Below are positions 17,183-43,392 of a DNA stretch of 64,000 nucleotides, piece by piece. Source of the stretch: Balneolaceae bacterium (GTDB lineage: Bacteria > Bacteroidota > Rhodothermia > Balneolales > Balneolaceae); assembly GCA_017795005.1 (NCBI GenBank), contig CP051242.1, positions 372,001 through 436,000 on the forward strand. Direction: 5' to 3'. How positions within the stretch are numbered: position 1 is the stretch's first letter; each line of letters begins with the position of its first letter. The translations under genes were made by a program, and so were the position numbers. The notes under the pieces were generated by a model. It saw only the letters and a program-made list of their open reading frames with translations, searched no databases and was not told the DNA's origin.

Positions 17183-17239
17183 CAAGACAAATAATTGATC
17201 TTCAGGATCAGGTTTGTCAAAAGCACATACGGCAAGACT

Positions 17240-17938
17240 ATGAAAGATGAGATGGAATTCTATCTGCAGCATACCGGAACGGTGGTGATTTCAGATATGA
17301 CTAAGCAGGATTTGAAAAATCTGATTTCAACCGGAGAAAGTTCTTTTCTCGAGTTTAAGCACAAGGTCGCCTCTCCGGAAAAGCTCGCCAAAGAAATTGC
17401 TGCTTTTGCCAACAATAAAGGGGGAAAGCTGCTCATCGGAGTTGCTGACAATGGCGAGATGGTTGGAGTTGAAAGTTATTTGGAAGAAGAGTTCTGGATT
17501 ACTCAGGCCGCAGAGGATTGTTGTATTCCAGCTCCTGAAATTTCGATTCAATTGATCAGCGCCGGTGGGAAAGATGTGCTTTTAGTAGATGTTCCTGAAG
17601 CGGAGGAAAAACCGGTGTATGTAAAAGGAAAAAAGAAAAGGACCGTATACATTCGAAGAGAAGACGAAAGTGTGGTTGCTTCCGATGAAATGATTGAAGT
17701 GCTTAAATACGGGAGTTCAGAGGAAGGGGTCACTTTTGAATATGGAGAAAAGGAACGGTTGTTATTCAGGTTCCTCAACGAATACAGTGAGATAACCGTA
17801 GAACGTTTTTCTATTCTGATTAATACAACAACTTACACTGCGGCAAAAATACTGGTGAATTTAGTAAGCGCGGGTGTTCTGGACTTGTTTGAGAAAGACG
17901 GCGCTGCTCATTATACATTTTCCAAGAAAAGTGCGTAA
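17240..17938 (+). CDS. AlbA_2/Schlafen-like putative DNA-binding protein
   Basis: I chose the ATG at 17240 over the TTG at 17195. The AlbA_2 domain begins near MTKQDLKNLIS, with the family signature ESSFLEFKHKVASPEKLAKEIAAFANNKGGKLLIGVADNGEMVGV (ExxxxEFK; AxxNxxGGxLxxGVxDxG) and RRTVYIRREDESVVA. The C-terminal 80 residues look like a winged helix (TVERFSILINTTTYTAAKILVNLVSAGVL). Members are regulators or nucleic acid-binding proteins of uncertain role. The gene follows gpsA by about 57 bp. Confidence 0.82.
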   Translation: MKDEMEFYLQHTGTVVISDMTKQDLKNLISTGESSFLEFKHKVASPEKLAKEIAAFANNKGGKLLIGVADNGEMVGVESYLEEEFWITQAAEDCCIPAPEISIQLISAGGKDVLLVDVPEAEEKPVYVKGKKKRTVYIRREDESVVASDEMIEVLKYGSSEEGVTFEYGEKERLLFRFLNEYSEITVERFSILINTTTYTAAKILVNLVSAGVLDLFEKDGAAHYTFSKKSA

Positions 17939-18021
17939 TTTTAAAGTCGAATTTCTTAACTGCCGTCATCCTGAACTTGTTTCAGGATCTGTTGTGAGCA
18001 GGAGTTTAATCAAAGAGTAAA

Positions 18022-18450
18022 ATGAGTATACAAGAAGAGAATTTAGATGATGTGATCGCCTCACTACTTGATTTTGAGGAGGACGAAGGTGCATCAAAAA
18101 ATGAAGAAAGAGAGCTGACGGGAGAACCCGTTAGGTTAACAGAGCGCGCTGCCCGCCAAGTTCAGAAAATTAAGTCCGATGAGTCGCTAGAAGAGGGGCT
18201 ATACCTTCGGGTCGCGGTAGAGGGCGGGGGATGTTCCGGTCTGAGTTACAAACTTGGTTTGGATCACAGAACTGAACAGGATGTTGTTTTTGAAAATCAT
18301 GGGGTAGAAGTAATCGTCAATTCAGATCATCTGTTATATCTGGAAGGAATTGAAATCGACTATCCGGACGGACTGGATGCCAGAGGCTTCACTTTTGATA
18401 ATCCCAACTCCGTTGAAGACTGCGGGTGCGGGACCAGCTTTTCTATTTAA
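18022..18450 (+). CDS. IscA/ErpA/HesB-type iron-sulfur cluster assembly protein
   Basis: A-type carrier that delivers Fe-S clusters to apoproteins. The C-terminal 105 residues match the family: VRLTERAARQVQKI, then LRVAVEGGGCSGLSYKLG with the first ligand Cys, and the paired Cys in NSVEDCGCGTSFSI at the C-terminus. The N-terminal extension of about 37 residues is acidic (DDVIASLLDFEEDEGASKNEERE) and not part of the usual 107-residue family; an internal start is not obvious. LipA, encoded 3 kb upstream, is a natural Fe-S client but the link is inference. Confidence 0.9.
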   Translation: MSIQEENLDDVIASLLDFEEDEGASKNEERELTGEPVRLTERAARQVQKIKSDESLEEGLYLRVAVEGGGCSGLSYKLGLDHRTEQDVVFENHGVEVIVNSDHLLYLEGIEIDYPDGLDARGFTFDNPNSVEDCGCGTSFSI

Positions 18451-18455
18451 TACTT

Positions 18456-18563
18456 GTAGAAAGTGACTGAGTGGCTGAAGGTGGGCGGCGGCTTATAAGC
18501 ACCGCTCCCACATTAATAAGCTAATTATTTGGTGTGGCGCAGGTTCGAATCCTGTCTTTCTAC
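18456..18563 (+). tRNA. tRNA-like gene, class II (Ser-type D arm), anticodon not assignable
   Basis: The 108-nt segment folds with an 8-bp acceptor stem GTAGAAAG/CTTTCTAC. It has a serine-tRNA-like D arm (ACTGAGTGGCTGAAGGT), a T arm GCAGG-TTCGAAT-CCTGT, and a strong long variable arm (CCACATTAATAA/TTATTTGGTGTGG, loop GCTAA). The anticodon stem GGCGG/CCGCT encloses about 13 nt (CGGCTTATAAGCA) instead of 7, so no standard anticodon can be read; CTTATAA would place UAU but with mismatches below. The 8-bp acceptor, with the equivalent of G-1:C73, is also unusual. It could be an aberrant functional tRNA or a pseudogene. No CCA is encoded. Confidence 0.6.
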
Positions 18564-18955
18564 TAATTATTTATCAAAGTCGTAGTCCTTAATTCATTTC
18601 AGGATCTTAAGAATCGGTCTCAAAAGTCTTTCTTGTCATTAATTCTTTTCTCCTACTTTTGTGCCGACAAAAGTAGCAAAAGCTCCCGACTGCAACTGAC
18701 TCCCGGGTTCATCAAAGATTAAACTGAATAAATCCGAAGGTCCTTGTTCTGGAAAGCCATATTTACTTTTCATCCGGTGCGGATTTATTCCCCGTTCTGG
18801 GACGTTGAATCTTTGTATTCACTTCTCCGGTCACCAGTTTAATGCCGGATTATTTTGGGGCTTGTAAAAGTCCCCTCTTGAGAGGGGATTTAGGGGTGTG
18901 TTACAGAAAGCAAGTTATATTTATAAAAGGAAGGAATAAGATCGAAATGTAAAAA
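18564..18955. repeat. Intergenic region with dispersed repeat family B
   Basis: No gene is seen in these 392 bp. The block 18672-18735 contains CGGGTTCATCAAAGATTAA and recurs inverted at 47930-47993 with few changes. An AATGCCGGATTATTTT motif at about 18842 is followed by CCCCTCTTGAGAGGGGA, a short palindrome. Similar TGCCGGAT...ATTTT ends occur near 22200, 22570, 45665 and 47700. Confidence 0.65.
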
Positions 18956-20206
18956 CTATTCCGAACCTTCCTTCTTGGCAATCAACCTTACCCCACGCTT
19001 AAAAGTAACATAGTGCCACACCCATTCGGCGAATACTCTGAACCGGTTTCGGAATCCGATTAAGAAGAAAATATGGATGAAGCCCCACATTAACCAGGCC
19101 AGAAAACCACTGAGTTTAAAACCACGGATATCAGCAACGGCTTTAGCCCTACCGATTGTAGCCATGGTTCCTTTATCTACATAATGGAAGTCTTTACGGG
19201 GTTTGCCTTTGAGTTCATCTCTCAGAAGTTTCCCAATGAACTTGCCTTGTTGCATCGCAACGGGTGCAAGACCGGGTAGGGGCATACCATTTTTATCCGG
19301 AAAATGAGCGGCATCTCCTAATACAAAAATATGATCATCGGAAGGAGTAGAAAGATCTTTACTGACTTTAACCCTGCCAATTCTATCCGTTTCTTCATTA
19401 AGCTCAGCAAGAATAGGAGCGGCAGAAACGCCGGCAGCCCAAATCACATTAGGGGTTTCGATAAAATGATTTTTAAGCTGAACTCCCTTATCTGTGATTT
19501 CTTCTACTGGTGAGTTAAGAATAACCTGAACACCCATTTTATTGAGAGTTTGTAGCGCACTATCGGAAAGCTTTTCATTAAAACCATTTAGTACATTTCC
19601 AGCTGCTTCCACCAAATAAATAGTTGTCTCGTTGCGGTGGAAGTTTCGGTAGTCCCGCATCATATTCCGTTTGGCAATTTCGGCAATGGATCCCGCCATT
19701 TCAACGCCGGTTGGTCCGGCGCCAATCACCACATATGCGAGGTAAGGTTTACGCTTTTCCAGATCTATGATTTTTTCAGCTTGTTCCAGAGAAAGTAATA
19801 TTCGCTCTCTGATCTGAAGGGCATTATCCAGCGTTTTTAAACCGGGAGCATGTTTCGACCACCCATCATTTCCGAAATAGTTATACTTAGCGCCCGGCGC
19901 GAGAACAAGATAATCATAGGTGATTTCATCTCCTTCCTGAAGAAAAACCCTTTTTGCAGATTTATCGATGCGAATGACTCTTCCAAGAACCACATTTACG
20001 TTTCTTTGCTTCGTAAAAACAGCCCGAATCGGAACGGCAATATCACCCGGAGAAAGAGCTGCAGTAGCCACCTGATAGAGAAGCGGTTGAAAAAGGTGGT
20101 GATTAGATTTGTCTATTAAAGTGACTTTGAAGTCAGATGACTTGAGGTATTTGGCAACGTTGAGACCGGCAAAGCCTCCGCCAACGATTACTACATGAGT
20201 AGCCAT
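18956..20206 (-). CDS. ndh: Type II NADH dehydrogenase (NDH-2)-like FAD oxidoreductase
   Basis: Single-subunit NADH:quinone oxidoreductase family, non-proton-pumping, membrane associated. 416 residues. FAD motif IVGGGFAGLNVAKYL at residues 6-20, YDYLVLAPGA, second dinucleotide motif VVIGAGPTGVEMAGSIAE near residue 162, and VFVLGDAAHF. The C-terminus has a hydrophobic stretch (FLAWLMWGFIHIFFLIGF) near residue 377, followed by a basic tail, suited to membrane anchoring. It is the last gene of an operon hslO - hypothetical - ndh (15-bp gap). Confidence 0.88.
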   Translation of the reverse strand: MATHVVIVGGGFAGLNVAKYLKSSDFKVTLIDKSNHHLFQPLLYQVATAALSPGDIAVPIRAVFTKQRNVNVVLGRVIRIDKSAKRVFLQEGDEITYDYLVLAPGAKYNYFGNDGWSKHAPGLKTLDNALQIRERILLSLEQAEKIIDLEKRKPYLAYVVIGAGPTGVEMAGSIAEIAKRNMMRDYRNFHRNETTIYLVEAAGNVLNGFNEKLSDSALQTLNKMGVQVILNSPVEEITDKGVQLKNHFIETPNVIWAAGVSAAPILAELNEETDRIGRVKVSKDLSTPSDDHIFVLGDAAHFPDKNGMPLPGLAPVAMQQGKFIGKLLRDELKGKPRKDFHYVDKGTMATIGRAKAVADIRGFKLSGFLAWLMWGFIHIFFLIGFRNRFRVFAEWVWHYVTFKRGVRLIAKKEGSE

Positions 20207-20221: not shown

Positions 20222-21046
20222 TTAGGATTTAGCCTTTTCACCTAAAGTTAATTCATCTTCAACTTCAATATCTTCTAAATCCGGAATTATTATTCGTTCT
20301 TTTGATTTGGTTTCCGATTTACCAGCCTGAAAGTGTCGCTCTACGATCTGTTGCAAGGTTCCTAAAAGCTCTACCAGTTTATTTTTCCGCTTTAGCTTTC
20401 TTTTTTTGATAAAGCGGTGAAAGAAAAAACTTCCTAAAACAAAAAGACCCGAAAAAATTAGCATAGGAGCAATGCCATCCTGATCCGCCTGCCCAAAAAT
20501 AATCGCGGCGGTCATCATAAAAGCTGCAAAAGTGGCGATAGTTGGGAAAATATAAAGTTTATTTAGAGTGCTAAGATTCTGACGGACAGAAAACTTCACC
20601 CGGTTGTTCTTCTGGGATATTTCCAGCTCGGGGGAATTGGTAACGGAGAAAAGTCGGGATGGACCCGAAGGACTGGCTTTCCAAAAAATCTTTTTACTTC
20701 GGCGGTTTATGTTACCAACCGTATTAAAATGATATTCTAAATTAGCCCGGATTTCATTGAGAACTCCTCCATCTATGGCACCATAAGCCTGGGCAGTAAC
20801 ATGAACATCGGTTTGATTTCCTGTATCCACTTTAATGGGATCATCCGTTTCAATTCCTTCATGCTCGATCAGGGCTTCTTTTATATAAGAACGATCAATG
20901 TTCAGATTATCACCTATTTCAAATAATGTCTGATAATCATCTTCATTAAAAAGAGAGCGTTTATGGGGAGACTGTTCGTTAAATTTCTGAAATAAGGATG
21001 CCCTTTTTATTAGTAATCTGATTTCATCGTCGGTAAGCCTGCCCAT
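20222..21046 (-). CDS. Hypothetical membrane protein with two transmembrane helices
   Basis: 274 residues. An N-terminal region of about 70 residues is mixed helical and charged (DDEIRLLIKRASLFQKF ... NIDRSYIKEALIEHEG). It is followed by a beta-rich stretch, then two membrane helices (IFPTIATFAAFMMTAAIIFG; APMLIFSGLFVLGSFFFHRFI) and a basic, coiled-coil-like C-terminus. No family is recognised. Similar two-helix proteins exist in related marine bacteria, but I cannot name one. It lies between hslO (7-bp gap) and ndh (15-bp gap), so the three are probably cotranscribed. Confidence 0.7.
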   Translation of the reverse strand: MGRLTDDEIRLLIKRASLFQKFNEQSPHKRSLFNEDDYQTLFEIGDNLNIDRSYIKEALIEHEGIETDDPIKVDTGNQTDVHVTAQAYGAIDGGVLNEIRANLEYHFNTVGNINRRSKKIFWKASPSGPSRLFSVTNSPELEISQKNNRVKFSVRQNLSTLNKLYIFPTIATFAAFMMTAAIIFGQADQDGIAPMLIFSGLFVLGSFFFHRFIKKRKLKRKNKLVELLGTLQQIVERHFQAGKSETKSKERIIIPDLEDIEVEDELTLGEKAKS

Positions 21047-25980: not shown

Positions 25981-26060
<80 letters not shown>

Positions 26061-26063
26061 CTA

Positions 26064-26107
26064 AAGCCTTGTACTGCAATTATTTAAAGCTGTACGAGGC
26101 TTTTTTA
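26064..26107 (+). terminator. Terminator after tRNA-Phe
   Basis: AAGCCTTGTAC (26064-26074) pairs with GTACGAGGCTT (26092-26102), with one T-G pair, followed by a T-rich tract. A differently sequenced hairpin occupies the same position next to attR (45508), so both island ends keep a terminator. Confidence 0.8.
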
Positions 26108-26135
26108 TTTTATGCTTTTCTAAGGGTTGATTTAA

Positions 26136-26159
26136 GCTCGGGGACAGGCGGGGGACAGT
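26136..26159. repeat. GC-rich GGGGACAG repeat near attL
   Basis: GCTCGGGGACAG is followed by GC and GGGGGACAGT. The segment GGGGACAGGCGGGGGACAGT is identical at 31802-31821, and a variant lies at 45298-45321 near attR in the same orientation. It stands out in AT-rich surroundings; it may be an integrase arm site or a module boundary. Confidence 0.8.
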
Positions 26160-26256
26160 GAAATCTTATTCTCATCTTATTGCGAAAATACTTATTTAGG
26201 TCTTTGTTCCATAGTTGTAAATAAATAACATTATATAAAAGTAAGCGGGTGCAAAT

Positions 26257-29200
26257 ATGCGGGGAAAGTTTATAATTGGCTTAATGCTATTAGTAATAGC
26301 ATCTTGTGAAGTCAATGCTTTACAGATACAATTCCAAGAAGAAAAAATAATTCTTGATTCAGGGAGGGATATCTATAACCCAGTTAGCTTCGATATTGAC
26401 TTAGATGGAGATGGTGATATAATATTTTCATTAGTCTCATCATTGGCTAATACAAAAGATCAATTAGGCTGGATTGAAAATTTAGGGGAGTCAAATTTCT
26501 CAGAGTTTAAATTTTTACATGATGCTAATAGTATCTTTGGGGCATTTTTAGCACAAGATATTGATAATGATAATGACCAAGATATTATTGTAGCCCAATA
26601 CTCTCCAATAGGAACATATTGGTACGAAAACAACGGCGACAATTCATTTTTGGAAAAAAAACAAATAGCGACTAAAGGAACTTTGCCAAGATCAATTGTT
26701 TCAGCTGATTTTGATAATGATTTAGATATTGATATTGCAATAGGGTATCAACTTGAGGAAAACATTTATATGTATTTAAATAATGGAGATAAAACATTTG
26801 ATGAAGGCTTTATAATTGGAGAAAACATCGATGATCCGATGGATATGCATGTTAATGATTTCAATAATGATGGGTATTTAGATATAGCCGTAGTATCTAG
26901 AAATGATAATAAGCTAAGAGTTTTCTATAACGATAATCTTAATTTTAATGAGATTTTATTATCTGATGGCATCAATTATCCAATAGCGGTTCATTCAGAT
27001 GATATAAATAATGATGGTTTTATAGACATTATTACTGGACCGAATAATGGGAAAGACATCTACATTTTTAAAAATATTGATGGGACAAATTTTGTAGTAG
27101 ACACTTTAAGTACAAATATTTTTTATGGTGTCCGGGATATAGAAACTGGTGATTTAGATAAGGATGGAGATATAGATATAGTTACTACTAAAGCAGGAGG
27201 TAGTTATTTTGAAAACCTTAATAACTCTAGTTTTAGCGATTTAACACAAATTGGCGGTGTTGGTAATACAGGGATTATTCTTTCTGATTTAAATAGTGAT
27301 GAGTATTTAGACATAATTTCAACATCCGAAACTAATGATCCAGGTACAGGTGGTAGTGTTAAATTTTTCACAAATATTACAGGTACTAAAATTGAAGAGG
27401 AACTTTTAGCACATTATCCATTGAATGGTCATTTCAATGATGAAAGTGGAAATGAATTTCATGGTGTAGTTACAGGAGATATTACTCCTATGGAAGATCG
27501 ATGGGGTAACCAGAACGTAGCTATGAATTTTTCTGGATCGGGAAATTATGTAGATATAGACTTTAATGGATTTCCATTTTCCAATGAGCTAACTATTTCA
27601 TTTTGGGCAAAAGTATCAGATTCAGAGGTTGAATACGCGCGCTTTCTTGCAGTTAATAAAGATACTGGTGAGCCGGACGAAATGGCTCTTAGAATTAACT
27701 ATGTTAGTTCAATTGATGAATATAGATTTAAGATTGGAGATGGTAGTGCGGATGATTCACAAATTCAAAGCTATTCTAACCCAGAACATTGGGAACTCAT
27801 TACTGCGGTATATGATAATAATGAACTCAAGCTTTATATAAATGATGACCTCCGAAAATCTACAATCACTCAAATCTCATTGGATGACTTTATTTCACTA
27901 AGGATCGGAGATGCATTTGGTTCGTCAAGAAACTATAACGGAGCGATGGACGATCTCAGAATATATAATTATGCATTATCTGAAGAAGAAATTAATGCTT
28001 TATTTACTAATTGGGGTTGGGAAGGATATGAAAATGATGCTGAACCGATTGCTCACTATTCATTTGATGGTTCAGTTGAAAACTCAATCACACAAGAATT
28101 AGGAGAGATAAATGGCAACATCCAATATGGTCTAGGAATACGGGATCAATCTATACACTTTGAAGGTGATGGAAATGTTAACCTAGGAGAACTTTACACT
28201 ATAGATGATCAAGATTTTAGCACAAGTATGTGGATTAAATTTGATGATCATGATAGTGATAATCAATTCTTGAGAAATAGTTTATTATCAGACCCAAACC
28301 CAAATTTGTTTGCTTTAACATATGCAAATAACAATAGTAAGAAGATTAGATTGGTCACTATAGATCAAAACCAAAATCCAAATAATCTTTACACTATTAA
28401 TGATTATGAAATTGATACTTGGTATTACCTTACTTTTGTCAGATCTGGAGGTACTGGGTTCATTTATGTAAATGGGGAACTAGAAAATTCTGGAAAAATA
28501 AATGGTGGAGATATTGGTGATTTCAAAGATTGGGTTTTAGGTCAAGGGCATCAAGAAGGGTTTTTCAGGGGTAGCATTGATGAACTACAAGTTTTTGATA
28601 TAGCCCTTACAAGTGAACAAGTTAAAACTTTATATAACGAAAGTGGAGGGGATAAATTAGTTGCATACTACCCATTTAATGGAAATGCTAATGACGAAAG
28701 TGGAAATGGATTTGATGCAGTTGAAATTGAAGCAACTTTAACTACTGATCGATTCGGAATCTCAAATAACGCATATCAATTTGATGGTGTTGATGATTTT
28801 ATTCAATTATCTGGTTCATTTTCAAACAACCAATCTAAAGGGAGTGTCTCGATTTGGGTTCAATTTGAAGATGAGCTCGATGATTATAACATAATTGCAA
28901 AGGGGCCTAATGATTTTAGAATCCAATATTCACAATCCAATGATGATATTTACTTTTCTTTAAATAGCGAGAATGGTGTTGACCGCGATTATACTGATTC
29001 AAATCTGGATTGGACACAGTGGAACCATATCGTAATTACTTGGGATGAAAATAGTAAATCAGTATTTCTAAATGGGCAACTTAACTATAATGTTTCAAAC
29101 AGTTTCTCGATAGAAAGTAATATTGGTGATATATACTTGGGGAGAAATGGAGGCTTAGAGACAAATGATTATGAGTTTTTGAAGGGGAAAATAGATGACT

Positions 29201-31707
29201 TAATATGGTTTAACGCTAAGCTTAGTGAATCTGATATACAGATATTATACTCTGAAAATGGTTGGCAAGGTAGTTCAAAAAATTATACTGCTCAGATTCA
29301 AAATTTTGAAATTCTCTCAGAACACCCAGAGCTTAAGGATGAAAGTATCAGCCCCGGAGAACAACTACTGATCTCTTTTGATATTGAAAATACTTCTAAT
29401 GAGGATATTTTTTTTTCAGGAATAAATACTGACTCAAATCTTGATTTTGAAACAAGTCTAGATACATACGCAGCAATTACTGGTACCTCATTTAATTATA
29501 AAATTTCTCCTGGTGAAATTTTTGAAGGTATCATATTAGAGATCCGGCTTTTAGAATGGACAGAAATTAACGAAATAGTTATCCCCCTTGTAACCGAGAA
29601 CTTAAGTTTAGGAGGAGATTATGGTGACACAAAAAATATAGGGGAGATTCAATTAAGTATTAATTCACATTCCGATACTCCTACGATACCATTACCTGAA
29701 GTTCAAAATCAACTAGCTAATGGAAATCTACTGCCAGATGATATGCTGATTACTGAATATGTTCCATTTTTAAGGATAGAAAGAAATGAACACTGGAAGT
29801 ATTTAGAAGCCGCAGTTTCATTAGCATTAATTACAAAAAACGTTGTTAAAGAACACATGCTTAGTCCAATTACAGAGATTGGAAGTGACATAGTCTTTAG
29901 TTTAGGTTTCGAATTATGGAATAATGAGCTAAAAAAGGATTCAAATAAATATGGATATATACAGACAGTTGCTGGAACTTTTGACTATTCAGTCCTAGTG
30001 CCTGAATCTAACTTTATGTATTCAAATGAGCCAAACGAAGTTGATAGATCACCAAAGCTAACGTTACCAGTTAAAGCTTTAGTAAAAATAAGAGATGCCA
30101 AAGAATATATAGAGATTTCTGACAGCCTACCTTCTTTATCCTTAATTGAACCAATTTCATTTATTTATGATACTAATTCTGTGAATAACTACCAGTATTT
30201 AGATCTAACAAATTATGAAACAGATGAAAATAATAGACTTATATATAGTGATTATTACAATAAGAAGGTTTTTTTTACTGGTGTTATTCATCAAATTTTA
30301 ATGGATGATGATGGGAATAAATTTTTATCGATTGCTTTCGTTGATGATGATCCAGTAGATACATTTATTTTTGATGCAGTATTAAGTTCGATTTTTGAAC
30401 GGAGAACTTATAAGGTTTTAATCAAATTAAATGAAATTGATGTAATACCGAATATTGGGTCAGTAATAAGTGCTTATGGAATTTTAAAATCAGATATAAT
30501 TTCTTTTTTAAACAACCCAAATTGGGGTGGACAAGATCAAGTAAATGGGTTTATTGAAGCAAATGACATCATTATCCTTAGTGGAAGCGTAAGTTCTGAA
30601 ATTGATGAATCAAAAGAATTATTTTCAACCAAAAATTCCTATGGAGCAGTTACTTTTACTGTTACATCGACAGAAACTAAAAATAAAAGTACTGTAAATT
30701 TATTACCTGACTTTCACCTATATGACTCATATGGAAATCATGCAGGGCCTGTTTATGATTCAACTGGTGCAATAGCATATTTTGAAAACACAATACCAAG
30801 ATCTATATACTCAAACTTAGGTGATACATTAAAGATAATACGCATTGATTCATTAATTGATCAAAAGTTTGTAATTGAGTTTAATGCTCGAGAAAACTCC
30901 AATTTTTCGTTTAATACTGTCACTCATTCTTTAAATGGGGTTGGAAGTGAAAACATTGATGCGCTAACTTTCAAAGATAAATATCTAAATAAGGATGATT
31001 TTGATCAGATTTACTTTAGTCCTAAAAAAAATTTAGAAGACACTTTTTTTTATACAGATTCATTAACTGCCTCAAGTAAAATTGAATTATTAGAAATACC
31101 CAGTAATTGGTTTATAGAGAAAGAAAATGAAGTACTTAGCATAAAAGTTTTTGACCTCCCAGAATCATTTAATATTGACGATGCTATTCTCGAATCTTTT
31201 ACAATTAACGGTAGTATGGTATCTAATATACCAACTGCGACATTTGTGGATAATGAAAGTAATATTGAAATGGAAATTTCAATTGGAGAACTAAGTAATT
31301 TTATAGGTACATACGATCCCGGAACATATTTTTTAGAGATCACTTTTGATTCCAATATTGGTGAAATAAAATCAGGGTTGGCTTTTAATATTACCCCATT
31401 CAATACTTTAACTTCTTTTTCTACTGAAATTAATAGAATACCAGATGAGTTTAATTTGCTACAAAATTATCCAAACCCATTTAACCCAATTACTAAAATT
31501 GATTATTCATTGCCAGTAGATGCTAATGTAAGGATTGATATAATAAATACCCTTGGACAACATATAGCTACATTAATTGATGATAGACTAAACGCAGGTA
31601 AACATAGTATAAATTTTGACGCATCTAATTTATCAAGTGGTGTTTATTTCTATACAATAAATGCAGGTAATTATATTAAGACTAAAAAGATGCTATTAAT
31701 AAAATAA
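26257..31707 (+). CDS. Giant T9SS-secreted protein with FG-GAP propeller and LamG domains
   Basis: 1816 residues. N-terminal signal MRGKFIIGLMLLVIASCEVNA (Sec or lipoprotein type). Residues about 40-375 hold seven FG-GAP/VCBS-like repeats with Ca-binding loops (DLDGDGD, DIDNDNDQD, DFNNDGYLD, DINNDGFID, DLDKDGDID), a likely seven-bladed propeller. Three LamG/concanavalin-like domains follow at about 385-590, 590-800 and 800-1005 (HYPLNGHFNDESGN; DDLRIYNYALSEEEI; DELQVFDIALTSEQV). A long unassigned middle follows, and residues about 1730-1816 are a type IX sorting domain (LLQNYPNPFNP ... GVYFYT...KKMLLIK). An adhesin or polysaccharide-binding surface protein is likely. It is AT-rich and probably acquired. 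Confidence 0.88.
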   Translation: MRGKFIIGLMLLVIASCEVNALQIQFQEEKIILDSGRDIYNPVSFDIDLDGDGDIIFSLVSSLANTKDQLGWIENLGESNFSEFKFLHDANSIFGAFLAQDIDNDNDQDIIVAQYSPIGTYWYENNGDNSFLEKKQIATKGTLPRSIVSADFDNDLDIDIAIGYQLEENIYMYLNNGDKTFDEGFIIGENIDDPMDMHVNDFNNDGYLDIAVVSRNDNKLRVFYNDNLNFNEILLSDGINYPIAVHSDDINNDGFIDIITGPNNGKDIYIFKNIDGTNFVVDTLSTNIFYGVRDIETGDLDKDGDIDIVTTKAGGSYFENLNNSSFSDLTQIGGVGNTGIILSDLNSDEYLDIISTSETNDPGTGGSVKFFTNITGTKIEEELLAHYPLNGHFNDESGNEFHGVVTGDITPMEDRWGNQNVAMNFSGSGNYVDIDFNGFPFSNELTISFWAKVSDSEVEYARFLAVNKDTGEPDEMALRINYVSSIDEYRFKIGDGSADDSQIQSYSNPEHWELITAVYDNNELKLYINDDLRKSTITQISLDDFISLRIGDAFGSSRNYNGAMDDLRIYNYALSEEEINALFTNWGWEGYENDAEPIAHYSFDGSVENSITQELGEINGNIQYGLGIRDQSIHFEGDGNVNLGELYTIDDQDFSTSMWIKFDDHDSDNQFLRNSLLSDPNPNLFALTYANNNSKKIRLVTIDQNQNPNNLYTINDYEIDTWYYLTFVRSGGTGFIYVNGELENSGKINGGDIGDFKDWVLGQGHQEGFFRGSIDELQVFDIALTSEQVKTLYNESGGDKLVAYYPFNGNANDESGNGFDAVEIEATLTTDRFGISNNAYQFDGVDDFIQLSGSFSNNQSKGSVSIWVQFEDELDDYNIIAKGPNDFRIQYSQSNDDIYFSLNSENGVDRDYTDSNLDWTQWNHIVITWDENSKSVFLNGQLNYNVSNSFSIESNIGDIYLGRNGGLETNDYEFLKGKIDDLIWFNAKLSESDIQILYSENGWQGSSKNYTAQIQNFEILSEHPELKDESISPGEQLLISFDIENTSNEDIFFSGINTDSNLDFETSLDTYAAITGTSFNYKISPGEIFEGIILEIRLLEWTEINEIVIPLVTENLSLGGDYGDTKNIGEIQLSINSHSDTPTIPLPEVQNQLANGNLLPDDMLITEYVPFLRIERNEHWKYLEAAVSLALITKNVVKEHMLSPITEIGSDIVFSLGFELWNNELKKDSNKYGYIQTVAGTFDYSVLVPESNFMYSNEPNEVDRSPKLTLPVKALVKIRDAKEYIEISDSLPSLSLIEPISFIYDTNSVNNYQYLDLTNYETDENNRLIYSDYYNKKVFFTGVIHQILMDDDGNKFLSIAFVDDDPVDTFIFDAVLSSIFERRTYKVLIKLNEIDVIPNIGSVISAYGILKSDIISFLNNPNWGGQDQVNGFIEANDIIILSGSVSSEIDESKELFSTKNSYGAVTFTVTSTETKNKSTVNLLPDFHLYDSYGNHAGPVYDSTGAIAYFENTIPRSIYSNLGDTLKIIRIDSLIDQKFVIEFNARENSNFSFNTVTHSLNGVGSENIDALTFKDKYLNKDDFDQIYFSPKKNLEDTFFYTDSLTASSKIELLEIPSNWFIEKENEVLSIKVFDLPESFNIDDAILESFTINGSMVSNIPTATFVDNESNIEMEISIGELSNFIGTYDPGTYFLEITFDSNIGEIKSGLAFNITPFNTLTSFSTEINRIPDEFNLLQNYPNPFNPITKIDYSLPVDANVRIDIINTLGQHIATLIDDRLNAGKHSINFDASNLSSGVYFYTINAGNYIKTKKMLLIK

Positions 31708-32145
31708 CGGAGTTAAAGTCCGTGGGTATTGGCTAAAATATTTCCTGTAAGTTATATTATTAATTGGAGTTGTGATTAATCCATTCAAAGATATTTTATA
31801 AGGGGACAGGCGGGGGACAGTAATTAGTAACAATTAAGTAACTATTATATTAGGTGTAATAAAGTCTAAAACATATGAGATATAAGAACATTACGATTTG
31901 AGCAAATTTTTAAAATCTCGTTCTTAACCTATTTAGGTTGTAATTGAATTACTTGAGTGATATTGTTGAGCCAAAAGTGAAGTAAATAATAATACATAAA
32001 CCATTGAGTCCGCTTTTTTATATATAAGTCCGTCGCAGAAGGAAATAACCTTGCCGTTAAGGCTATAGTTTTGGATAATGTAGAACTAAAGAAAGCTTAT
32101 CAACCAGAGTTTGGAATACTTTCTCCATAAAACAGTTACTAATCA
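31708..32145. other. Intergenic region with repeat and possible gene remnant
   Basis: The 438-bp gap between the giant gene and hsdM holds the GGGGACAG repeat (31802-31821). Just before hsdM there is a 34-codon open stretch (32026-32127, read AEGNNLAVKAIVLDNVELKK and ending EFGILSP) with no start codon after the in-frame TGA at 32005. It could be the tail of a deleted gene or chance. The hsdM promoter must lie here but I cannot place it. Confidence 0.4.
31802..31821. repeat. GC-rich GGGGACAG repeat, middle copy
   Basis: GGGGACAGGCGGGGGACAGT, identical to 26140-26159 and in the same orientation. The two copies bracket the giant T9SS gene (about 5.7 kb), suggesting that this gene and the left copy arrived or moved as one unit. 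Confidence 0.8.
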
Positions 32146-33741
32146 ATGCTATCTAAAGAATTAAAATCAAAAATTGACAGCCTATGGGATAAATTCTGGT
32201 CCCGGGGTATGGCAAATCCATTAACAGCCATTGAACAAATCTCCTATCTCTTATTTATGAGAAGACTTGATCAAATGGATGCAGATGAAACTAAAAGAGC
32301 TTCTGGTGATGAATACCAATCAATTTTTGAGGGTACCTGGGATACTGGAGAGAAAGATACTGAGGGCAAAAAAAATGTATTGATCCATAAAGAGGAGCTG
32401 AGATGGACTGTATTCAAAGAATATGAAACCGAACAAAAGCTAAAGCATGTAACTCAATATGTATTTCCATTTCTCAAGGAGTTAAACGATGAGAACTCTC
32501 CATATGCACGTCATATGAAGTCTGCAAATTTCTTCATGCCCAGCGCTTTGTTGTTAGAAGATGCGATGCTGGCTATTGATGATATCTTTGATTACATCGA
32601 ACAAGAAAAAAAAGACGGACAGGTATTTCAGGACACACAAGGAGACGTATATGAATATCTACTGAGTGAATTAAAGAACGCAGGCAAGAATGGTCAGTTT
32701 AGAACTCCAAGGCATTTAATTCGCTTTTTGGTTGAAATATTAGACCCTGATTTAGGGGATAAAATTTGTGATCCAGCTGCGGGTACTGGTGGTTTTTTAG
32801 TAGCTGCTTACCAACATATTTTAGCCAAACATTCTTCTGATGAGAAAAGACTAAAAGATGATAATGGATTCTTTAATGGTTTAGGGGATCAAATAAAAGA
32901 CGAAAAATTTTGGGATCAGCTGAAGAAGGAAACCTTTTATGGGTACGACATTGATTCAGGGATGGTTCGAATTGGCTTGATGAATCTGATGCTTCATGGT
33001 ATAACTTATCCACACATTGAGAATCTTGATACCCTTTCAAAGAGGTATGATGAGAGCCATCAAGAGGGAGAGTTTTCGGTGGTATTAGCGAATCCTCCTT
33101 TTACCGGTAAGATTTCGAAGAATGATAAAAGCGATGAGTTTAGAATTTCTTCAAATTCAACGGAGTTACTTTTCTTGGAAAGAATTATGAAAATGCTTCG
33201 ACCAGGTGGAAAGGGTGGAGTAATTATTCCAGAGGGGGTATTGTTTGGTTCATCCAAAGCGAATAAACAACTTCGGGAAATATTGGTTAAGGATTGCCAA
33301 TTGGAAGCTGTGATATCTCTCCCAAGCGGGGTTTTTAAACCCTATACCGGAGTTAAAACGGCTATGTTGGTATTTACTAAAGAGCAACAGGATTCTAATG
33401 AGTTTCATACCGAAAGGGTGTGGTTTTATGAATTAGAAAGCGATGGATATTCATTAGATGACAACAGAAGAAGATTGAAGGAAAGCCCATTACCGGAAGC
33501 TGTTTTGGATTGGGAGGAAAGGGGAGAAAAGAGTTCAGAGGTTGATCGAAAAGGTAAGCATTTCTTTGTACCGTTAGAAGAAATTCAAGAAAACGAGTAC
33601 GACTTAAGTATTAATCGATACAAGGAATTTGTGTATGAAGAACAAGAATATGACCCGCCGAAAAAGATTTTAGAAGCTCTAGTGAGTCTCGAAAACGAAA
33701 TTTTGAGTGATATGGAGGAGTTAAAAGGCTTGTTTGGATGA
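32146..33741 (+). CDS. hsdM: Type I restriction-modification methyltransferase subunit (HsdM)
   Basis: N6-adenine methyltransferase subunit working with HsdS. 531 residues. The N-terminal helical domain (KIDSLWDKFWSRGMANPLTAIEQISYLLFMRRLDQMD) is followed by the N6_Mtase domain with the SAM motif DPAAGTGGF near residue 209, NGLGDQ and YGYDIDSGMVRIG, and the catalytic motif NPPF near residue 316. Both motifs are intact. The stop overlaps the hsdS start as ATGA (33738-33741). It is the first gene of a four-gene operon that has no hsdR. It is clearly distinct from the HsdM at 48330. Confidence 0.95.
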   Translation: MLSKELKSKIDSLWDKFWSRGMANPLTAIEQISYLLFMRRLDQMDADETKRASGDEYQSIFEGTWDTGEKDTEGKKNVLIHKEELRWTVFKEYETEQKLKHVTQYVFPFLKELNDENSPYARHMKSANFFMPSALLLEDAMLAIDDIFDYIEQEKKDGQVFQDTQGDVYEYLLSELKNAGKNGQFRTPRHLIRFLVEILDPDLGDKICDPAAGTGGFLVAAYQHILAKHSSDEKRLKDDNGFFNGLGDQIKDEKFWDQLKKETFYGYDIDSGMVRIGLMNLMLHGITYPHIENLDTLSKRYDESHQEGEFSVVLANPPFTGKISKNDKSDEFRISSNSTELLFLERIMKMLRPGGKGGVIIPEGVLFGSSKANKQLREILVKDCQLEAVISLPSGVFKPYTGVKTAMLVFTKEQQDSNEFHTERVWFYELESDGYSLDDNRRRLKESPLPEAVLDWEERGEKSSEVDRKGKHFFVPLEEIQENEYDLSINRYKEFVYEEQEYDPPKKILEALVSLENEILSDMEELKGLFG

Positions 33742-35219
33742 GAATTAGTAATGTTATATCAAGAAAAATTTCAGGTGAATGGGGTAAGGAGGCAACATCA
33801 GACGATGCTGTTTTTGTAATTCGTACTGCGAATTTTAGAAATGACGGAAAAATTCAATTCGATAATTTGGTTAAAAGGGACGTTGATCAAAAAAAGGTTT
33901 CCAAAAAACGACTTATTGATGGAGATATAATTATAGAAAAGTCAGGAGGGAGCCCTAAACAACCAGTCGGTAGAGTTGTATATTTTGAACAACCTTTTAA
34001 AGGAACATTTCTTTGTAATAATTTTACTAGTGTTCTTAGACCAGGACCTTCTATAGTTCCTAAGTATTTGTTCTACCACTTATCCTATAACTATTTAATT
34101 GGTAAAACTAGGTCTTATCAAAATAAGACAACTGGTATCATCAATTTAAAGTTAGATCGGTACTTAAAAGAAGAGCTTTATGTACCCGATCTCCAAACAC
34201 AACAACAGATCGTAGAAGCTTTAGATAGAGCTCAATCTCTTATTGAAAAGAGAGAAAAAAGCATTGAATTACTTGATGAATCACTCAGGGCAACTTTTTT
34301 GGATTTGTTTGGGGATCCATATATAAATGAGAAAAATTGGGAAGAACTTATAGTTGGTGATGTTGTTGAGAGAATAGAGGCTGGCTGGAGTGTTGCTGGG
34401 GAAAAGAGGCCAAAAGTAGCCGATGAGTTTGGCGTTTTAAAAGTTAGCGCAGTTACAAGTGGTCGGTTTAAGGCAGAAGAACATAAAGCGGTAGATAGAA
34501 CTAAAATTAAAAAGAAGCTGGTAGTACCTGAAAAAGGGGATGTTCTTTTCTCCAGAGCGAACACAATGGAGTTAGTTGCTGCTACTTGTATTGTCGATGA
34601 AACTGATGAGAAATTATTTTTACCGGATAAGCTATGGAAGATTCATCTAAAAGAAGAGAATATTACTCCTGAATACTTTGTTAGGGTTCTTAAATCCCCT
34701 TCATACCGAAGAAATTTGGCTTTAAAAGCTACTGGCTCGAGTGGTTCAATGTTAAATATTTCCCAAAAGAAACTTCTTTCTTATCAATTCCCAAAACCTC
34801 CAATAAAACTTCAAAAAGAATACTCTAATATCTATAGAGCTTTAGAAAATCACAGAAAAAAGCTAATCCAATTTTTAAAACAAACCGAGTTATTGTTTCA
34901 ATCTCTTTTACAAAGAGCCTTTCATGGAGATTTAACATTTCAATCAGAGTTGCAGTTAGATGCGTTAATTGAAAATTACGATGTTGAAGCCATTACTAAA
35001 GATGGCTCACTCATTCAGGAGTTAGTGGATCGGTTTAATCAACACAATCAAAAAGAAGAGTTTATAGAATCTGATAATGGAACTGGAGACTTTTTTTCAT
35101 TACATAGTTTTGAAGAATATGAGAGCGCCAAAGAGCTTATATTTAAGCTTATGAAATCGGATAAGGTTGAGCAGAGATATGATCAAGAGAAGAAGCAAAC
35201 AATTCTACAGATGAAATGA
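33738..35219 (+). CDS. hsdS: Type I specificity subunit (HsdS) with C-terminal extension
   Basis: 493 residues with two target-recognition domains. TRD1 covers about residues 1-150, followed by the helical spacer LQTQQQIVEALDRAQSLIEKREKSIELLDESLRATFLDLFGDP. TRD2 covers about 200-360, followed by a second helix ending FQSLLQRAFHGDLTF near residue 400. A further roughly 90 residues (QLDALIENYD ... KVEQRYDQEKKQTILQMK) extend beyond a canonical HsdS and could dock the downstream ATPase or nuclease (inference). It overlaps hsdM and the ATPase gene by 4 nt each (ATGA). Confidence 0.92.
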   Translation: MRISNVISRKISGEWGKEATSDDAVFVIRTANFRNDGKIQFDNLVKRDVDQKKVSKKRLIDGDIIIEKSGGSPKQPVGRVVYFEQPFKGTFLCNNFTSVLRPGPSIVPKYLFYHLSYNYLIGKTRSYQNKTTGIINLKLDRYLKEELYVPDLQTQQQIVEALDRAQSLIEKREKSIELLDESLRATFLDLFGDPYINEKNWEELIVGDVVERIEAGWSVAGEKRPKVADEFGVLKVSAVTSGRFKAEEHKAVDRTKIKKKLVVPEKGDVLFSRANTMELVAATCIVDETDEKLFLPDKLWKIHLKEENITPEYFVRVLKSPSYRRNLALKATGSSGSMLNISQKKLLSYQFPKPPIKLQKEYSNIYRALENHRKKLIQFLKQTELLFQSLLQRAFHGDLTFQSELQLDALIENYDVEAITKDGSLIQELVDRFNQHNQKEEFIESDNGTGDFFSLHSFEEYESAKELIFKLMKSDKVEQRYDQEKKQTILQMK

Positions 35220-36979
35220 AATTACTTCGTCTCAAAATTAACGCTGATTTCAGAAGCCTTAAAGCTGGCTTTGAGTTAAAATTTCGGCCAACACATACGA
35301 AGGAAGTGTTCTTAGATGAAATTAGAATTTTTAATAGATTTGAACCATTTTGCTTTGCTGGTTTGAATGGAAGTGGAAAGTCTAATGTACTAGAAGCCCT
35401 GGCGAATATTTTTTACCATCTGGAGTTATGTGCTAATCGATTTAAACCGGATGCTTTTAAAAGTTTTTTTTCTCCAGGAACTAATATCAATGGGCCGGAT
35501 GCATTTGAGCTAGAATATCTCATTTTCAAAGAAAGCCTGAAAGACGCTTTAGATGGATTAAATATTATTAGGGTTGTTAAGAGTGAGGGTGAGGAGCCTA
35601 AAATGTATCTGAAGTGGGATTTGTCTGAGTCTGATATTGACAATGAAGATCAAGAAATTCAGATTGTAGCTACAAGCTTTGATAAAGCCGCTCCTGGAAA
35701 AATCTACCTTCCAGATGCTGTTGTTGGATATTCATCAGGAGAGAATGAAACTCTAAGTATTCCTTTCATTAAATCGAGGTTGATTCATTATGATGAGTAT
35801 GCTCAGTCTACCGTAAGAAACGAACGATTTGAAGAACCGGAAAGTAGCTTGGTGTATATCGATAATGAAATGAGTCAAGCTGTACTTCTATCATGCCTTA
35901 TTCACGAAAGTGAGGATGCTTTAAAAAGTTTGAAAAACGAACTTCGAATAGTTCGACTCAGAAGTTTTCGAGTGACCCTTCAAAATCATGTACTGTCGGT
36001 TTTAGATAAAAACCGGACAAAACAGTTTCCGGTTTTCCATCAATTAAACGATAAAATTGAAGCTTTAAGGGATATCTCAACGGCCTATTTCTACCATGAA
36101 TTTGAAGAAGAAAAAGAACTAGAAAAATCAAGAACGTATAACAAACTCACATTAGATTTCTTTCTTGATGATCAGATGAAGCTGGCTTTTAAAGATATAT
36201 TTAAGTCTTCGTTAGATATGTTTCAGTTCTTCCAATTGCTTTACGAGCTGAATAATAACTTCATCGAGGTTGCAAATATAAGTGGAGGAATTAAAGAAGA
36301 AGTTTACAAGTCAGCAGGCTATTACACCGATGGTAAGCTGCCCATTCCTGGACCAGATAATAAGGCCTTCTTCTTTGAAGATTTCTATATCGAAAAAAAG
36401 AAAGTGAACTCTGAAGAGACCTTCGAGCTCCTTTTGAAACAATTTTCCGATGGAGAACATCAATTTCTTCACACAATGGGTATTTGTTTAATTCTTAAAA
36501 ATAAGCGGGCTTTACTTTTGTTAGATGAACCCGAAACCCATTTCAATCCAGACTGGAGAAGTAGATTCATTGACATGCTTGAATCTAGTATTGAGGAAAG
36601 TGGAGCAGATCATTTGTTGAAGGATATTCTGCTTACATCCCATTCACCTTTTATCATTTCTGACTGTTTACCTAACAACGTCATATTTTTCGACAAGAAG
36701 GATGATTCAAAATTTAGTACCGCTAGGTCTGCTCGTGAATTGGGATTAAAAACTTTTGGATCAAGTATCAATTACATATTGAAAAACTTTTTTAACACTG
36801 ATCTCATACCAAAGAAATCAAAAGATGAGTTAATTGAGCTTATTGAAAATGGATCTTTAGAAGACCTTAGAGAAGCGGTTGAATATTTTGGTGAGTCTAG
36901 CGAGAAGCAGTTTTTATTTAGAAGAATCTATGAATTGAATGAGGAGGCGGAAGATGATAGTTCAGCTTCGGAAAACTAA
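35216..36979 (+). CDS. Restriction-associated AAA15/21-type ABC ATPase
   Basis: 587 residues, OLD/RecF/PtuA-like ATPase. Walker A GLNGSGKSNVLEAL near residues 49-62; signature-like FSDGEHQFLHTMG near 410; Walker B LLLLDEPETHFNP near 434; switch His in LLTSHSPFIISD near 474. All catalytic elements are present. A long helical insertion lies between Walker A and the signature. I recall RefSeq using the name 'restriction system-associated AAA family ATPase' for such proteins, unverified here. The start overlaps hsdS as ATGA. In Septu systems an ATPase of this class (PtuA) controls an HNH nuclease (PtuB); here it is followed by an HNH gene. Confidence 0.9.
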   Translation: MKLLRLKINADFRSLKAGFELKFRPTHTKEVFLDEIRIFNRFEPFCFAGLNGSGKSNVLEALANIFYHLELCANRFKPDAFKSFFSPGTNINGPDAFELEYLIFKESLKDALDGLNIIRVVKSEGEEPKMYLKWDLSESDIDNEDQEIQIVATSFDKAAPGKIYLPDAVVGYSSGENETLSIPFIKSRLIHYDEYAQSTVRNERFEEPESSLVYIDNEMSQAVLLSCLIHESEDALKSLKNELRIVRLRSFRVTLQNHVLSVLDKNRTKQFPVFHQLNDKIEALRDISTAYFYHEFEEEKELEKSRTYNKLTLDFFLDDQMKLAFKDIFKSSLDMFQFFQLLYELNNNFIEVANISGGIKEEVYKSAGYYTDGKLPIPGPDNKAFFFEDFYIEKKKVNSEETFELLLKQFSDGEHQFLHTMGICLILKNKRALLLLDEPETHFNPDWRSRFIDMLESSIEESGADHLLKDILLTSHSPFIISDCLPNNVIFFDKKDDSKFSTARSARELGLKTFGSSINYILKNFFNTDLIPKKSKDELIELIENGSLEDLREAVEYFGESSEKQFLFRRIYELNEEAEDDSSASEN

Positions 36980-38048
36980 AACCCGACTCTCTATAATAAA
37001 CCAGATACCTAAAGTATTTTTTTTCAGAATTGAAAACTCGACACAATTTGGGAATCATTTATTTCCAAATTGGGCAAATCATATTTTTGCAGCTACAGAT
37101 TTAAAAGATAAGTTTAAAGATGTTTACGATGAGTACAAAAAATATAAGTCTTCTACTACAAGAAAGTTAATCCGAGAAACATTCTTTTATAATAATCAGA
37201 TTAAGGAATTGTGCGAAAATGACCCAACTACGAAGATTATTTCTATAGATAACTTGCCGAAAAGAATTCAAGACCCAATTAAAAAACTCTTTCTATACTT
37301 ATATAAGAATGCAATCAATAATAACCAATTTGTTGGATTAGTAAACGACAACGTATTTGACTTAATAAACCGATTTAAAAATGAAAACGGTATCGAAGTG
37401 TGTCCTTTATGTGGTATTGAAACAATAAACAATCTAAGAGGTCAAGCACGTCTTCCTTTAGATCATTGGCTTTGTAAAAAGGATTTTCCTATGGCGGCTG
37501 TAAACTTCAAAAATCTTATCCCCATTTGCCCATCTTGTAACAATAGTCCAGCAAAGGGAGAGAAGAATATATTAATAGATAGTTCACAAACAAGAGTTAA
37601 GGCTTTCTATCCTTTTCAAATGCATTCAGGAGTAGAGGTTTCTTTTTCTTATATAAATGAGCCAAGCTTAAAGGAGCCAACAAAAGAAGAAGATTGGAAT
37701 TTTAGTATTATCCCAAAAGATCCTGTTCAACAGGATATAGTGGACAACTGGCTTTCAATATTAAATCTTAATGTGAGATATAAAGATTATCTAAAGCAGT
37801 TGATATTGAATAATCTATGGGAGGATAGTTATAAGAGATACGTAGATAATGATAGGCTTCGCAATCATGCAAATTCAATTGCAGATTTTAAACTAAATCT
37901 GGAAGACTGGAGAAATACTATGTTTCAATTGAAGAAAACTTCAGGAGCAGTAGTGTATATAGCCTTCATTAATTACTTGATACATGATGCTTCAGATGCT
38001 TATTTAGCTTCTTTATTTCAAAATTTTTTAAGGCAAAGCCATAATTAA
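36954..38048 (+). CDS. HNH-type nuclease with zinc-finger core, partner of ATPase
   Basis: I prefer the ATG at 36954 (364 residues), preceded at good spacing by GGAGG, over the ATG at 36939. The central region is an HNH/zinc motif: EVCPLCGIETINN (CxxC, near residue 149), LPLDHWLCKKDFP (the DH of HNH), then NFKNLIPICPSCNNSPAKG (N plus CxxC, near 190). The flanks are helical, with no recognised domain. The gene overlaps the ATPase gene by 26 bp, showing tight coupling. By analogy to PtuB it is the probable DNA-cutting effector, replacing the missing HsdR. Sequence similarity to PtuB itself is not established. Confidence 0.85.
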   Translation: MIVQLRKTKTRLSIINQIPKVFFFRIENSTQFGNHLFPNWANHIFAATDLKDKFKDVYDEYKKYKSSTTRKLIRETFFYNNQIKELCENDPTTKIISIDNLPKRIQDPIKKLFLYLYKNAINNNQFVGLVNDNVFDLINRFKNENGIEVCPLCGIETINNLRGQARLPLDHWLCKKDFPMAAVNFKNLIPICPSCNNSPAKGEKNILIDSSQTRVKAFYPFQMHSGVEVSFSYINEPSLKEPTKEEDWNFSIIPKDPVQQDIVDNWLSILNLNVRYKDYLKQLILNNLWEDSYKRYVDNDRLRNHANSIADFKLNLEDWRNTMFQLKKTSGAVVYIAFINYLIHDASDAYLASLFQNFLRQSHN

Positions 38049-38052
38049 GATC

Positions 38053-39591: not shown

Positions 39592-40507
39592 CTTTCAATT
39601 CAAAACGGAGCGTATGATTGCCAGAAGTAAATTGTATGCGGGTTCCTTTCAACTTCAGGTGTTTTGGCCAATCATAAGTCCAACCTGGAGAATAGGCGAC
39701 AAAATGCTCATTCCTCTTTTTTAGGTAGCCACAGATGGGGCCCTTGAAATACCCAATCCATTCTATGTCATCAGAATGAACAACTTCAGTTGGAGAACTA
39801 CCATAAGTTGGCCGTCCGGAATAAAAATAAAGTTCAACCTCGCCGCTTGTAATGGAGCCGTTTAATCTATGCCAATTCAATATAGCATTGTCTGGATTAT
39901 CGAAATCTACACGTTTACTTCTAAGCATTTCTTTAGACTTGGCAAATTCTTCAAGTCTTTTTGAGAGCTTTAAATCAATGTTCTTTGGTCGTAACTCAGG
40001 TTCAGGAGAATATGCTCGTGTTAAATCAGACCAATCATGGCGCTCAATAATTTGGTATGTAACTAATGACTTGGAATCGAGAGCGAATAAAGTTTTGGTT
40101 CCTGCACCGGACCCAAAAGAGTTCTCAATAAAAAGAATAAAGTGAACACCATTTTTAAGCAAATCTTTTACTTCAAAATCAGAAGTATAAATAATCAGTT
40201 CAGTTTCCCATTCACGGATAAAAGAATCACCAACTCTTTTTATTAGAACTAATTTCTCGAAGTAGTCTTCTTTTACCTCTTTTACTTTTACAAGGATATA
40301 GACTCTGCCATCCACAAAATTTCTGAATGACCAGACCTCATTAATCTGACCCGAAACTATACCATAAGCATACTCTAAAGCTTCTTTCTTTGAATAAGGT
40401 ATAGAAAGGTTAAAAATAGAATTCCAGATATATCGAATACTAACCCATATACTGCTAATCCATGATCCTATTTTGCCAGAAAATATGGAGACTATAAAAT
40501 CAAGCAT
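39563..40507 (-). CDS. Hypothetical protein paired with patatin
   Basis: 314 residues, unrecognised. The N-terminus (MLDFIVSIFSGKIGSWISSIWVSIRYIW) is amphipathic and hydrophobic and could attach to the membrane. The central part is mixed alpha/beta (VYILVKVKEVKEDYFEKLVLIKR ... HFILFIENSFGSGAGTK), and the C-terminal 110 residues are beta-rich with many aromatics (GEVELYFYSGRPTYGSS ... FKGPICGYLKKRNEHFVAYSPGW). The patatin gene starts inside its 3' end (29-bp overlap in another frame), so the two form an operon. A sensor or inhibitor role for the lipase is conceivable but not supported by sequence. Confidence 0.65.
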   Translation of the reverse strand: MLDFIVSIFSGKIGSWISSIWVSIRYIWNSIFNLSIPYSKKEALEYAYGIVSGQINEVWSFRNFVDGRVYILVKVKEVKEDYFEKLVLIKRVGDSFIREWETELIIYTSDFEVKDLLKNGVHFILFIENSFGSGAGTKTLFALDSKSLVTYQIIERHDWSDLTRAYSPEPELRPKNIDLKLSKRLEEFAKSKEMLRSKRVDFDNPDNAILNWHRLNGSITSGEVELYFYSGRPTYGSSPTEVVHSDDIEWIGYFKGPICGYLKKRNEHFVAYSPGWTYDWPKHLKLKGTRIQFTSGNHTLRFELKGGKGKLYNI

Positions 40508-40583
40508 AACGGAAGTTAAAATGTTGAATGCTAAACCGAAAAGAAATAATTACATTGACCAGCAATTGATCAATCCTTAGAAT

Positions 40584-41489: not shown

Positions 41490-41609
41490 TCTTAGTAAAA
41501 GCTGAAAACTCAAAAACTCGTTAATCTTCGACTAAAAACTAGGTATAGCTAATCCCACCCGTTCAATACCCATTTATTGCCTGTTCTTGCCCATAATTAC
41601 ATCGACTCA

Positions 41610-42101: not shown

Positions 42102-42124
42102 AGTTTTTGTTTTCCAAGTTAAGA

Positions 42125-43051: not shown

Positions 43052-43072
43052 ACAGACAAATTCTGTCCCTAA

Positions 43073-43298: not shown

Positions 43299-43392
43299 AT
43301 TTACCTTTGTATTGTTAAGTAATTGATGACAAATTGAGGATGTTTTATAAATAACTTCTAGAAGTTAGATTCAAAAAAAACAGAAGTGAGCA

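Follow-up and report, generated by a model that had tools for sequence, protein, structure and literature searches.

The window analysed here is a 64-kb stretch (C1:372001-436000) of the 3.75-Mb single-contig genome of a Balneolaceae bacterium (G000). At 18022..18450 of its plus strand lies hesB, a gene coding for a HesB/IscA-type Fe-S protein (Pfam Fe-S_biosyn), and just upstream, on the same strand at 17195..17938, is a gene coding for a SLFN_AlbA_2-domain protein (Pfam E 4.2e-25). Directly behind hesB, plus strand 18456-18563 can be drawn, by direct reading of the sequence, as a class II tRNA of 108 nt, whose neighbours are the Fe-S_biosyn gene and an NDH-2 gene. A copy of this element is found in a sister species (G001; L002:1501-1614, minus strand). 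In both species 5 nt lie between the hesB stop and the element, a gap that is kept even though different stop codons are used (TAA vs TGA). A scan of 17900-19000 with a consensus of sigma-70 type only revealed no promoter-like site. Further along, on the minus strand between the NDH-2 and Hsp33 genes, a 274-aa ORF (20225-21046) had no Pfam match at E <= 0.001.

The preliminary description of this stretch as a class II tRNA-like gene with an 8-bp acceptor and a 13-nt anticodon loop was borne out by direct reading of its parts, all on the plus strand. The 5' acceptor strand GTAGAAAG (18456-18463), identical in the sister species, forms eight Watson-Crick pairs with CTTTCTAC (18556-18563); the 3' strand is followed by a U at the discriminator position, base 73 (18556..18564 in all), and CCA is not encoded. 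T and G at 18464-18465 separate the acceptor from the D arm (18466..18482), which consists of a 3-bp stem (ACT/GGT) and the Ser-like loop GAGTGGCTGAA, with equivalents of A14, G15, G18, G19 and A21. The anticodon arm (18483..18507) has a 6-bp stem, made of five pairs (GGCGG/CCGCT) and a sixth G-C pair of the 26-44 type stacked below them, and a loop of 13 nt, CGGCTTATAAGCA (18489-18501). This loop is probably not open: since GCT and AGC (18491-18493 with 18498-18500) can pair and close CGGCTTATAAGCA further, 'extended anticodon arm' is a better description than 'large open loop'. The long variable arm (18508..18537) has 12 bp with one bulge, and the T arm (18539..18555) has 5 bp, including a G-U closing pair, with the loop TTCGAAT. 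Acceptor and T stem together form a branch of 8+5 pairs, that is 13 bp. All the bases of the tRNA elbow (U8, A14, G15, G18, G19, C48 and T54 T55 C56 R57 A58) are present in both species, as in ordinary bacterial tRNAs, from which the element departs in its acceptor (8 bp, not 7), its anticodon loop (not 7 nt) and its score, which lies below the cut-off.

The 108-nt fold is better than expected by chance, with a z of -3.05 (1 of 200 shuffles was equally good), though the minimum free energy (MFE) structure is not a cloverleaf. In the window the cloverleaf lies at -35.7 kcal/mol against -40.1 for the MFE fold, a gap of 4.4; the latter retains the acceptor, the variable arm and the T arm, and pairs the D loop with the 3' strand of the anticodon stem. 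The gap is 2.2 kcal/mol in the sister copy, and the cloverleaf is the minimum in neither species. A gap of this size is on the high side, yet not disqualifying, because some ordinary host tRNAs show comparable ones: among 36 distinct tRNAs of the host used as a control, the cloverleaf lay 0 to 7.4 kcal/mol above its own minimum, with a gap of at least 4.4 in 3 and of at least 2.2 in 13. A low tRNA score, combined with a lack of expression, had been foreseen as a sign of a pseudogene, and the score is indeed low: the Rfam tRNA model RF00005 gave 15.3 bits against a cut-off of 29 bits, with a genome-wide E of 4.95, aligning to the inner part of the element. At 18456-18563 ARAGORN reported no tRNA, and Rfam at its curated gathering cut-off reported no family.

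Local alignment with the 36 host tRNAs placed tRNA-Ser(GCT) first (z 7.5), followed by a Met tRNA (z 6.1) and Pro(TGG) (z 5.3). The covariance model of the two copies scored Ser(GCT) at 46.3, Ser(GGA) at 41.2, Ser(TGA) at 35.7, Tyr at 33.2 and Leu(CAA) at 29.3 bits. GTG.CTGAGTGGCTGA and GGTTCGAATCC are common to the element and the host tRNA-Ser(GCT), and in the D-arm run GTGACTGAGTGGCTGA the two agree at every position except one; they differ in that the tRNA has a 7-bp acceptor and a 7-nt anticodon loop, compared with 8 bp and 13 nt. Judging from these likenesses, the element is best seen as a tRNA-Ser derivative, with tRNA-Ser(GCT) as its nearest relative in the genome. The host has 39 tRNA matches above the cut-off. 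Ordinary Ser tRNAs (GCT, TGA, GGA) and Leu tRNAs (TAA, CAA, TAG, GAG) are encoded, so decoding does not need the element. The sister species also carries a second, distinct tRNA-Ser(GCT) gene with an encoded CCA (L134, G001:C1:466900-467150), which the tRNA list for the genome of the window does not include.

Four kinds of tRNA-like RNA were compared with the element. The first, the allo-tRNAs, reportedly go back to Mukai et al. 2017. They have an 8-bp acceptor, a long variable arm and serine-type features (PMC7609411), and the element shares the acceptor length, the long variable arm and the Ser character. It differs from them in the branch, which has 12 bp in allo-tRNAs and 13 bp (8/5) here, and in having no readable anticodon where they have anticodons. 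In place of an 8/4 or 9/3 branch, the window copy shows 8/5 and the sister copy 8/5 with one mismatch; 8/4 would require the G-U (A-U) closing pair to stay unformed. Irregular allo-tRNA-like sequences that are unusable for translation in E. coli are also on record, and the allo-tRNA hosts named in the passages of the review drawn on here are Clostridia, Proteobacteria and Acidobacteria, not Balneolota (PMC7609411). With bacterial tRNA-Sec the element has in common the 8/5 acceptor/T branch and the long variable arm, whereas it has a 3-bp D stem instead of a long one. This identity was rejected on three grounds: there is no UCA anticodon, the element has no match to Rfam tRNA-Sec, and none of the three genomes (3/3) has a SelB above the curated cut-off.

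Bacterial Y RNAs adjoin Ro60/Rtc genes. Like the element, they (YrlA, for example) are tRNA-mimicking non-coding RNAs, but their layout is a circular permutation of that of tRNA (PMC11472068); the element, with its 5' half before its 3' half and Fe-S_biosyn and NDH-2 genes as neighbours, is not permuted and lies elsewhere, and it was rejected as a Y RNA for its lack of permutation. The tRNA-Other of Bacillus cereus is described as non-translating, part of a larger transcript and lineage-limited, keeping a Trp anticodon and flanking a genomic island (PMC3399842). The element resembles it as a lineage-limited tRNA-like RNA, and would do so further in a non-decoding role and in belonging to a larger transcript; it differs in having no anticodon frame and in lying behind a housekeeping gene. 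On these comparisons, the element would behave rather like a pseudo-tRNA that has become a structural RNA, outside the allo-tRNA and tRNA-Sec families.

Of the two sister species, one (G001) carries the element at the corresponding site, and in the other (G002, the third species of the genus) it is absent from the site behind hesB; 58 genomes of relatives, the host included, gave two matches at E <= 0.001, in the host itself and in G001. The sister copy differs at 8 of 110 aligned bases (7.3%) and has four additional A's in the anticodon loop, which thus measures 17 nt instead of 13; this 4-nt difference in length would break any frame, and a coding sequence was rejected for this reason. No change falls in the 5' acceptor strand, the D stem or either strand of the anticodon stem. 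Although six of the eight substitutions fall in helices, only 1 of 37 pairs is broken, a T-stem pair in the sister copy. An ortholog with compensatory change, proposed beforehand as a check, was therefore found in one sister species of two: the pair-keeping changes comprise one compensatory double change from A-U to C-G, in the variable arm, and three one-sided changes, among them U-G to U-A in the same arm. When eight substitutions are placed at random, no more than one pair is broken in 2.3, 4.9 or 9.8% of trials with transition weights of 1, 2 or 4, respectively. A column-shuffle control on the two sequences was uninformative, 259 of 500 shuffles reaching the observed value.

At four-fold sites of ten neighbouring genes, 679 of 1111 positions (61%) differ between the two species, against 7.3% in the element (Fisher p 5e-30), which would make simple decay unlikely. 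For ordinary tRNAs, 24 comparisons gave 21 differences in 1862 bases (1.1%), a 25th, of a mis-paired Met tRNA whose counterpart was not in the compared loci, having been left out. The element has thus changed faster than ordinary tRNAs; its divergence lies between theirs and that of four-fold sites, nearer the tRNAs. The similarity between the species extends no further than the element's 3' end; the sequence that follows immediately no longer aligns. On the other side, the 3' end of hesB is itself unusually alike: in the last 26 codons (18373-18450) 7 of 25 synonymous codons differ, compared with 16 of 32 in the preceding 34 codons, a ratio (0.56) below that of every other pair among the 122 hesB pairs. 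This likeness reflects either a recent exchange of a short segment or a constraint on the end of hesB linked to the element. When the element is set against local synonymous codons of hesB, p is 0.008 with 26 codons, 0.006 with 30, 0.0006 with 40 and 0.08 with 20, so that its apparent excess conservation is modest. Selection on the element is likely, not proven, the comparison being one of two sequences.

The range of the element is narrow. Searches with the two-copy model found it in 2 of 92 genomes of the family and in the same 2 of 128 genomes of the order (G000 and G001); ten genomes were matched in each set, the other eight through weaker matches to Pro, Met and His tRNAs of the ordinary kind. 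The same 2 of the 92 family genomes were picked out by a D-arm pattern in which up to 3 mismatches were allowed. Model and pattern revealed no copy in the other 90, with a reach that may miss distant copies and is limited in that tRNA-Ser(GCT) was not listed although the model gives it 46 bits. At 30 loci where the DNA behind hesB was read by eye, no tRNA-like element was seen except in G000 and G001 (the stretch read for one locus, L069, does not include that site). A pattern scan of genome contigs returned 15 stretches, only one of which matches as the element, on a Balneolaceae MAG contig (L088) with the same score as G001. Phages (22 records) and plasmids (4 records) showed no copy by blastn, their matches being partial; among the matches listed, these cover 16-30% of the query and are confined to the 3' part around the T arm. 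Two exact patterns searched in viral contigs returned 2 stretches and 0, the 2 being an 18-mer in unrelated sequence. An origin from a phage or plasmid was rejected on these partial matches, and an island integration site at the element was rejected since its neighbours are housekeeping genes. No published description of this element was found in the literature searched by title and abstract opening, nor any on Balneola with tRNA-like RNA.

The reading that we favour, with middling confidence, is that of a lineage-specific, tRNA-Ser-derived, non-decoding structured RNA in the 3' UTR of hesB, which would serve 3'-end formation or stability of the hesB message. A tRNA-Ser-like gene would have arrived directly behind hesB in the ancestor of the two sister species and would have been retained as structured RNA with its decoding function presumably lost. 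Because of the 5-nt gap and the lack of a sigma-70-type promoter match, the element most likely rides on the hesB transcript, transcription of the hesB operon presumably reading through it. The tRNA elbow (U8-A14, G15-C48 and G18/G19 with the T loop) would allow folding of tRNA type and, being intact, would presumably let RNase P cleave at the element's 5' end, perhaps with 3' trimming and CCA addition. Reported substrates of RNase P include mRNAs and tRNA-like structures (PMC11143913). Such a cut would fix the 3' end of hesB mRNA 5 nt past the stop codon and would free a stable, non-decoding tRNA-like RNA. The benefit would probably lie in a defined, structured 3' end or in the stability of the hesB message rather than in the freed RNA, which may nonetheless have a role of its own, by analogy with tRNA-Other in B. 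cereus. If this reading is correct, the locus would offer a tRNA gene converted to a non-decoding RNA at a housekeeping operon, in a phylum absent from the host list of the allo-tRNA review. The element would also be young enough, being found in two species, to trace the change, and from its 8/5 branch and variable anticodon arm one could better judge which enzymes (RNase P, the CCA-adding enzyme, SerRS, EF-Tu) still read it.

A doubtful alternative is a pseudogene, that is, a decaying tRNA-Ser copy which looks alike in the two species only through a recent exchange of the hesB 3' end together with the element. The score of 15.3 bits, the anticodon loop of unequal length (13 vs 17 nt), the broken T-stem pair of the sister copy and the failure to find the element in G002 or the other genomes searched are all consistent with decay, and the lowered synonymous divergence of the last 26 hesB codons, with the lowest ratio of 122 pairs, fits an exchange. 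The exchanged segment would however need to stop exactly at the 3' end of the element, which is moreover more conserved than the adjoining synonymous codons (8/110 vs 7/25, p 0.008) and whose changes mostly preserve pairs. The preliminary description had let a lack of conservation decide for a pseudogene; a sister copy with mostly structure-keeping changes disfavours that outcome.

We consider it unlikely that the element is a free-standing regulatory or decoy RNA acting in trans, such as one that keeps SerRS, a tRNA-binding enzyme or a tRNA nuclease occupied. Its elbow bases are complete, and SerRS reads the long variable arm without needing the anticodon. This mode of recognition is also stated for allo-tRNAs (PMC7609411), and tRNA-Other of B. 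cereus shows that a non-translating tRNA-like RNA can have a measured phenotype (PMC3399842). Against such a role, 17900-19000 has no promoter-like match to the sigma-70 consensus and no target is known. In addition, the element has U73 and U2-A71, which we take to be a departure from the usual Ser acceptor.

A further idea, to be regarded as a long shot, is that the element serves as a decoy or regulator, encoded in cis, of the Schlafen-type protein whose gene precedes hesB. In mammals, SLFN13 cleaves tRNA-Ser in its acceptor stem and fails when that stem has 9 bp, and rat SLFN13 is more active on tRNAs with longer variable loops (PMC5862951). By analogy, a tRNA-Ser mimic with a long variable arm, an over-long acceptor and no anticodon could be an uncut ligand that restrains the SLFN_AlbA_2 protein, outside translation. 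At least one relative (L055, read by eye) lacks the element but has the same protein gene ahead of hesB, and the product may well be a DNA-binding protein.

The element had initially been proposed to be either a non-standard tRNA, comparable to allo-tRNAs, or a regulatory mimic. The second half fits better, in the form of a mimic put to another use, and the first is weak. A working tRNA of allo-tRNA type, carrying serine and serving on ribosomes by means of an unusual anticodon arm, would share with allo-tRNAs the 8-bp acceptor, the long variable arm and the Ser-like D arm, but it is very improbable with a 13-bp (8/5) branch in place of 8/4 or 9/3 and an anticodon loop of 13 or 17 nt in place of 7; a working tRNA was rejected, there being no anticodon frame and ordinary Ser and Leu tRNAs being present. 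Least credible is a chance resemblance, with a cluster of 3' UTR hairpins not derived from a tRNA: the MFE folds are not cloverleaves, but the D-loop and T-loop sequence runs, the z of 7.5 for tRNA-Ser similarity and the presence of every elbow base speak against it.

Other tRNA-related elements were seen in the same genomes. An array of several circularly permuted tRNA-like units (L147 and L150, G000:C1:459150-459700, minus strand) is flanked in G000 by a TROVE/Ro60 gene on one side and an RtcB gene on the other (Pfam), and such units are present in all three species of the genus examined (L151, G001:C1:860000-876000; L152, G002:C4:170000-185000). Each unit runs from the T arm and 3' acceptor strand through a short linker (e.g. 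CTTCGG) to the 5' acceptor strand and D arm. The array is almost surely one of bacterial Y RNAs; since no Rfam family reaches the cut-off there, these may lie outside current models.

An integrative element in tRNA-Phe occupies 26007-45498 of the window, the last 48 bases of the tRNA gene (26007-26054) being repeated at 45451-45498. Adjoining the repeat is an integrase-like ORF (44082-45272, minus strand), named by eye and with no PADLOC match. Type I methylase and specificity genes (32146-35219) form part of the cargo, and among the ORFs of at least 120 aa no type I restriction subunit was recognised by eye. The cargo further includes a PtuA-like ATPase (35216-36979) with its partner (36939-38048; PADLOC PDC-M62B/M01B match) and a PDC-S18 protein (40584-41489). 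Finally, isolated 3' halves of a tRNA-Arg gene, followed by a terminator-like hairpin, occur in both the host (L149, G000:C1:843500-843700) and the sister species (L135, G001:C1:489600-489930) and are probably attachment-site leftovers.
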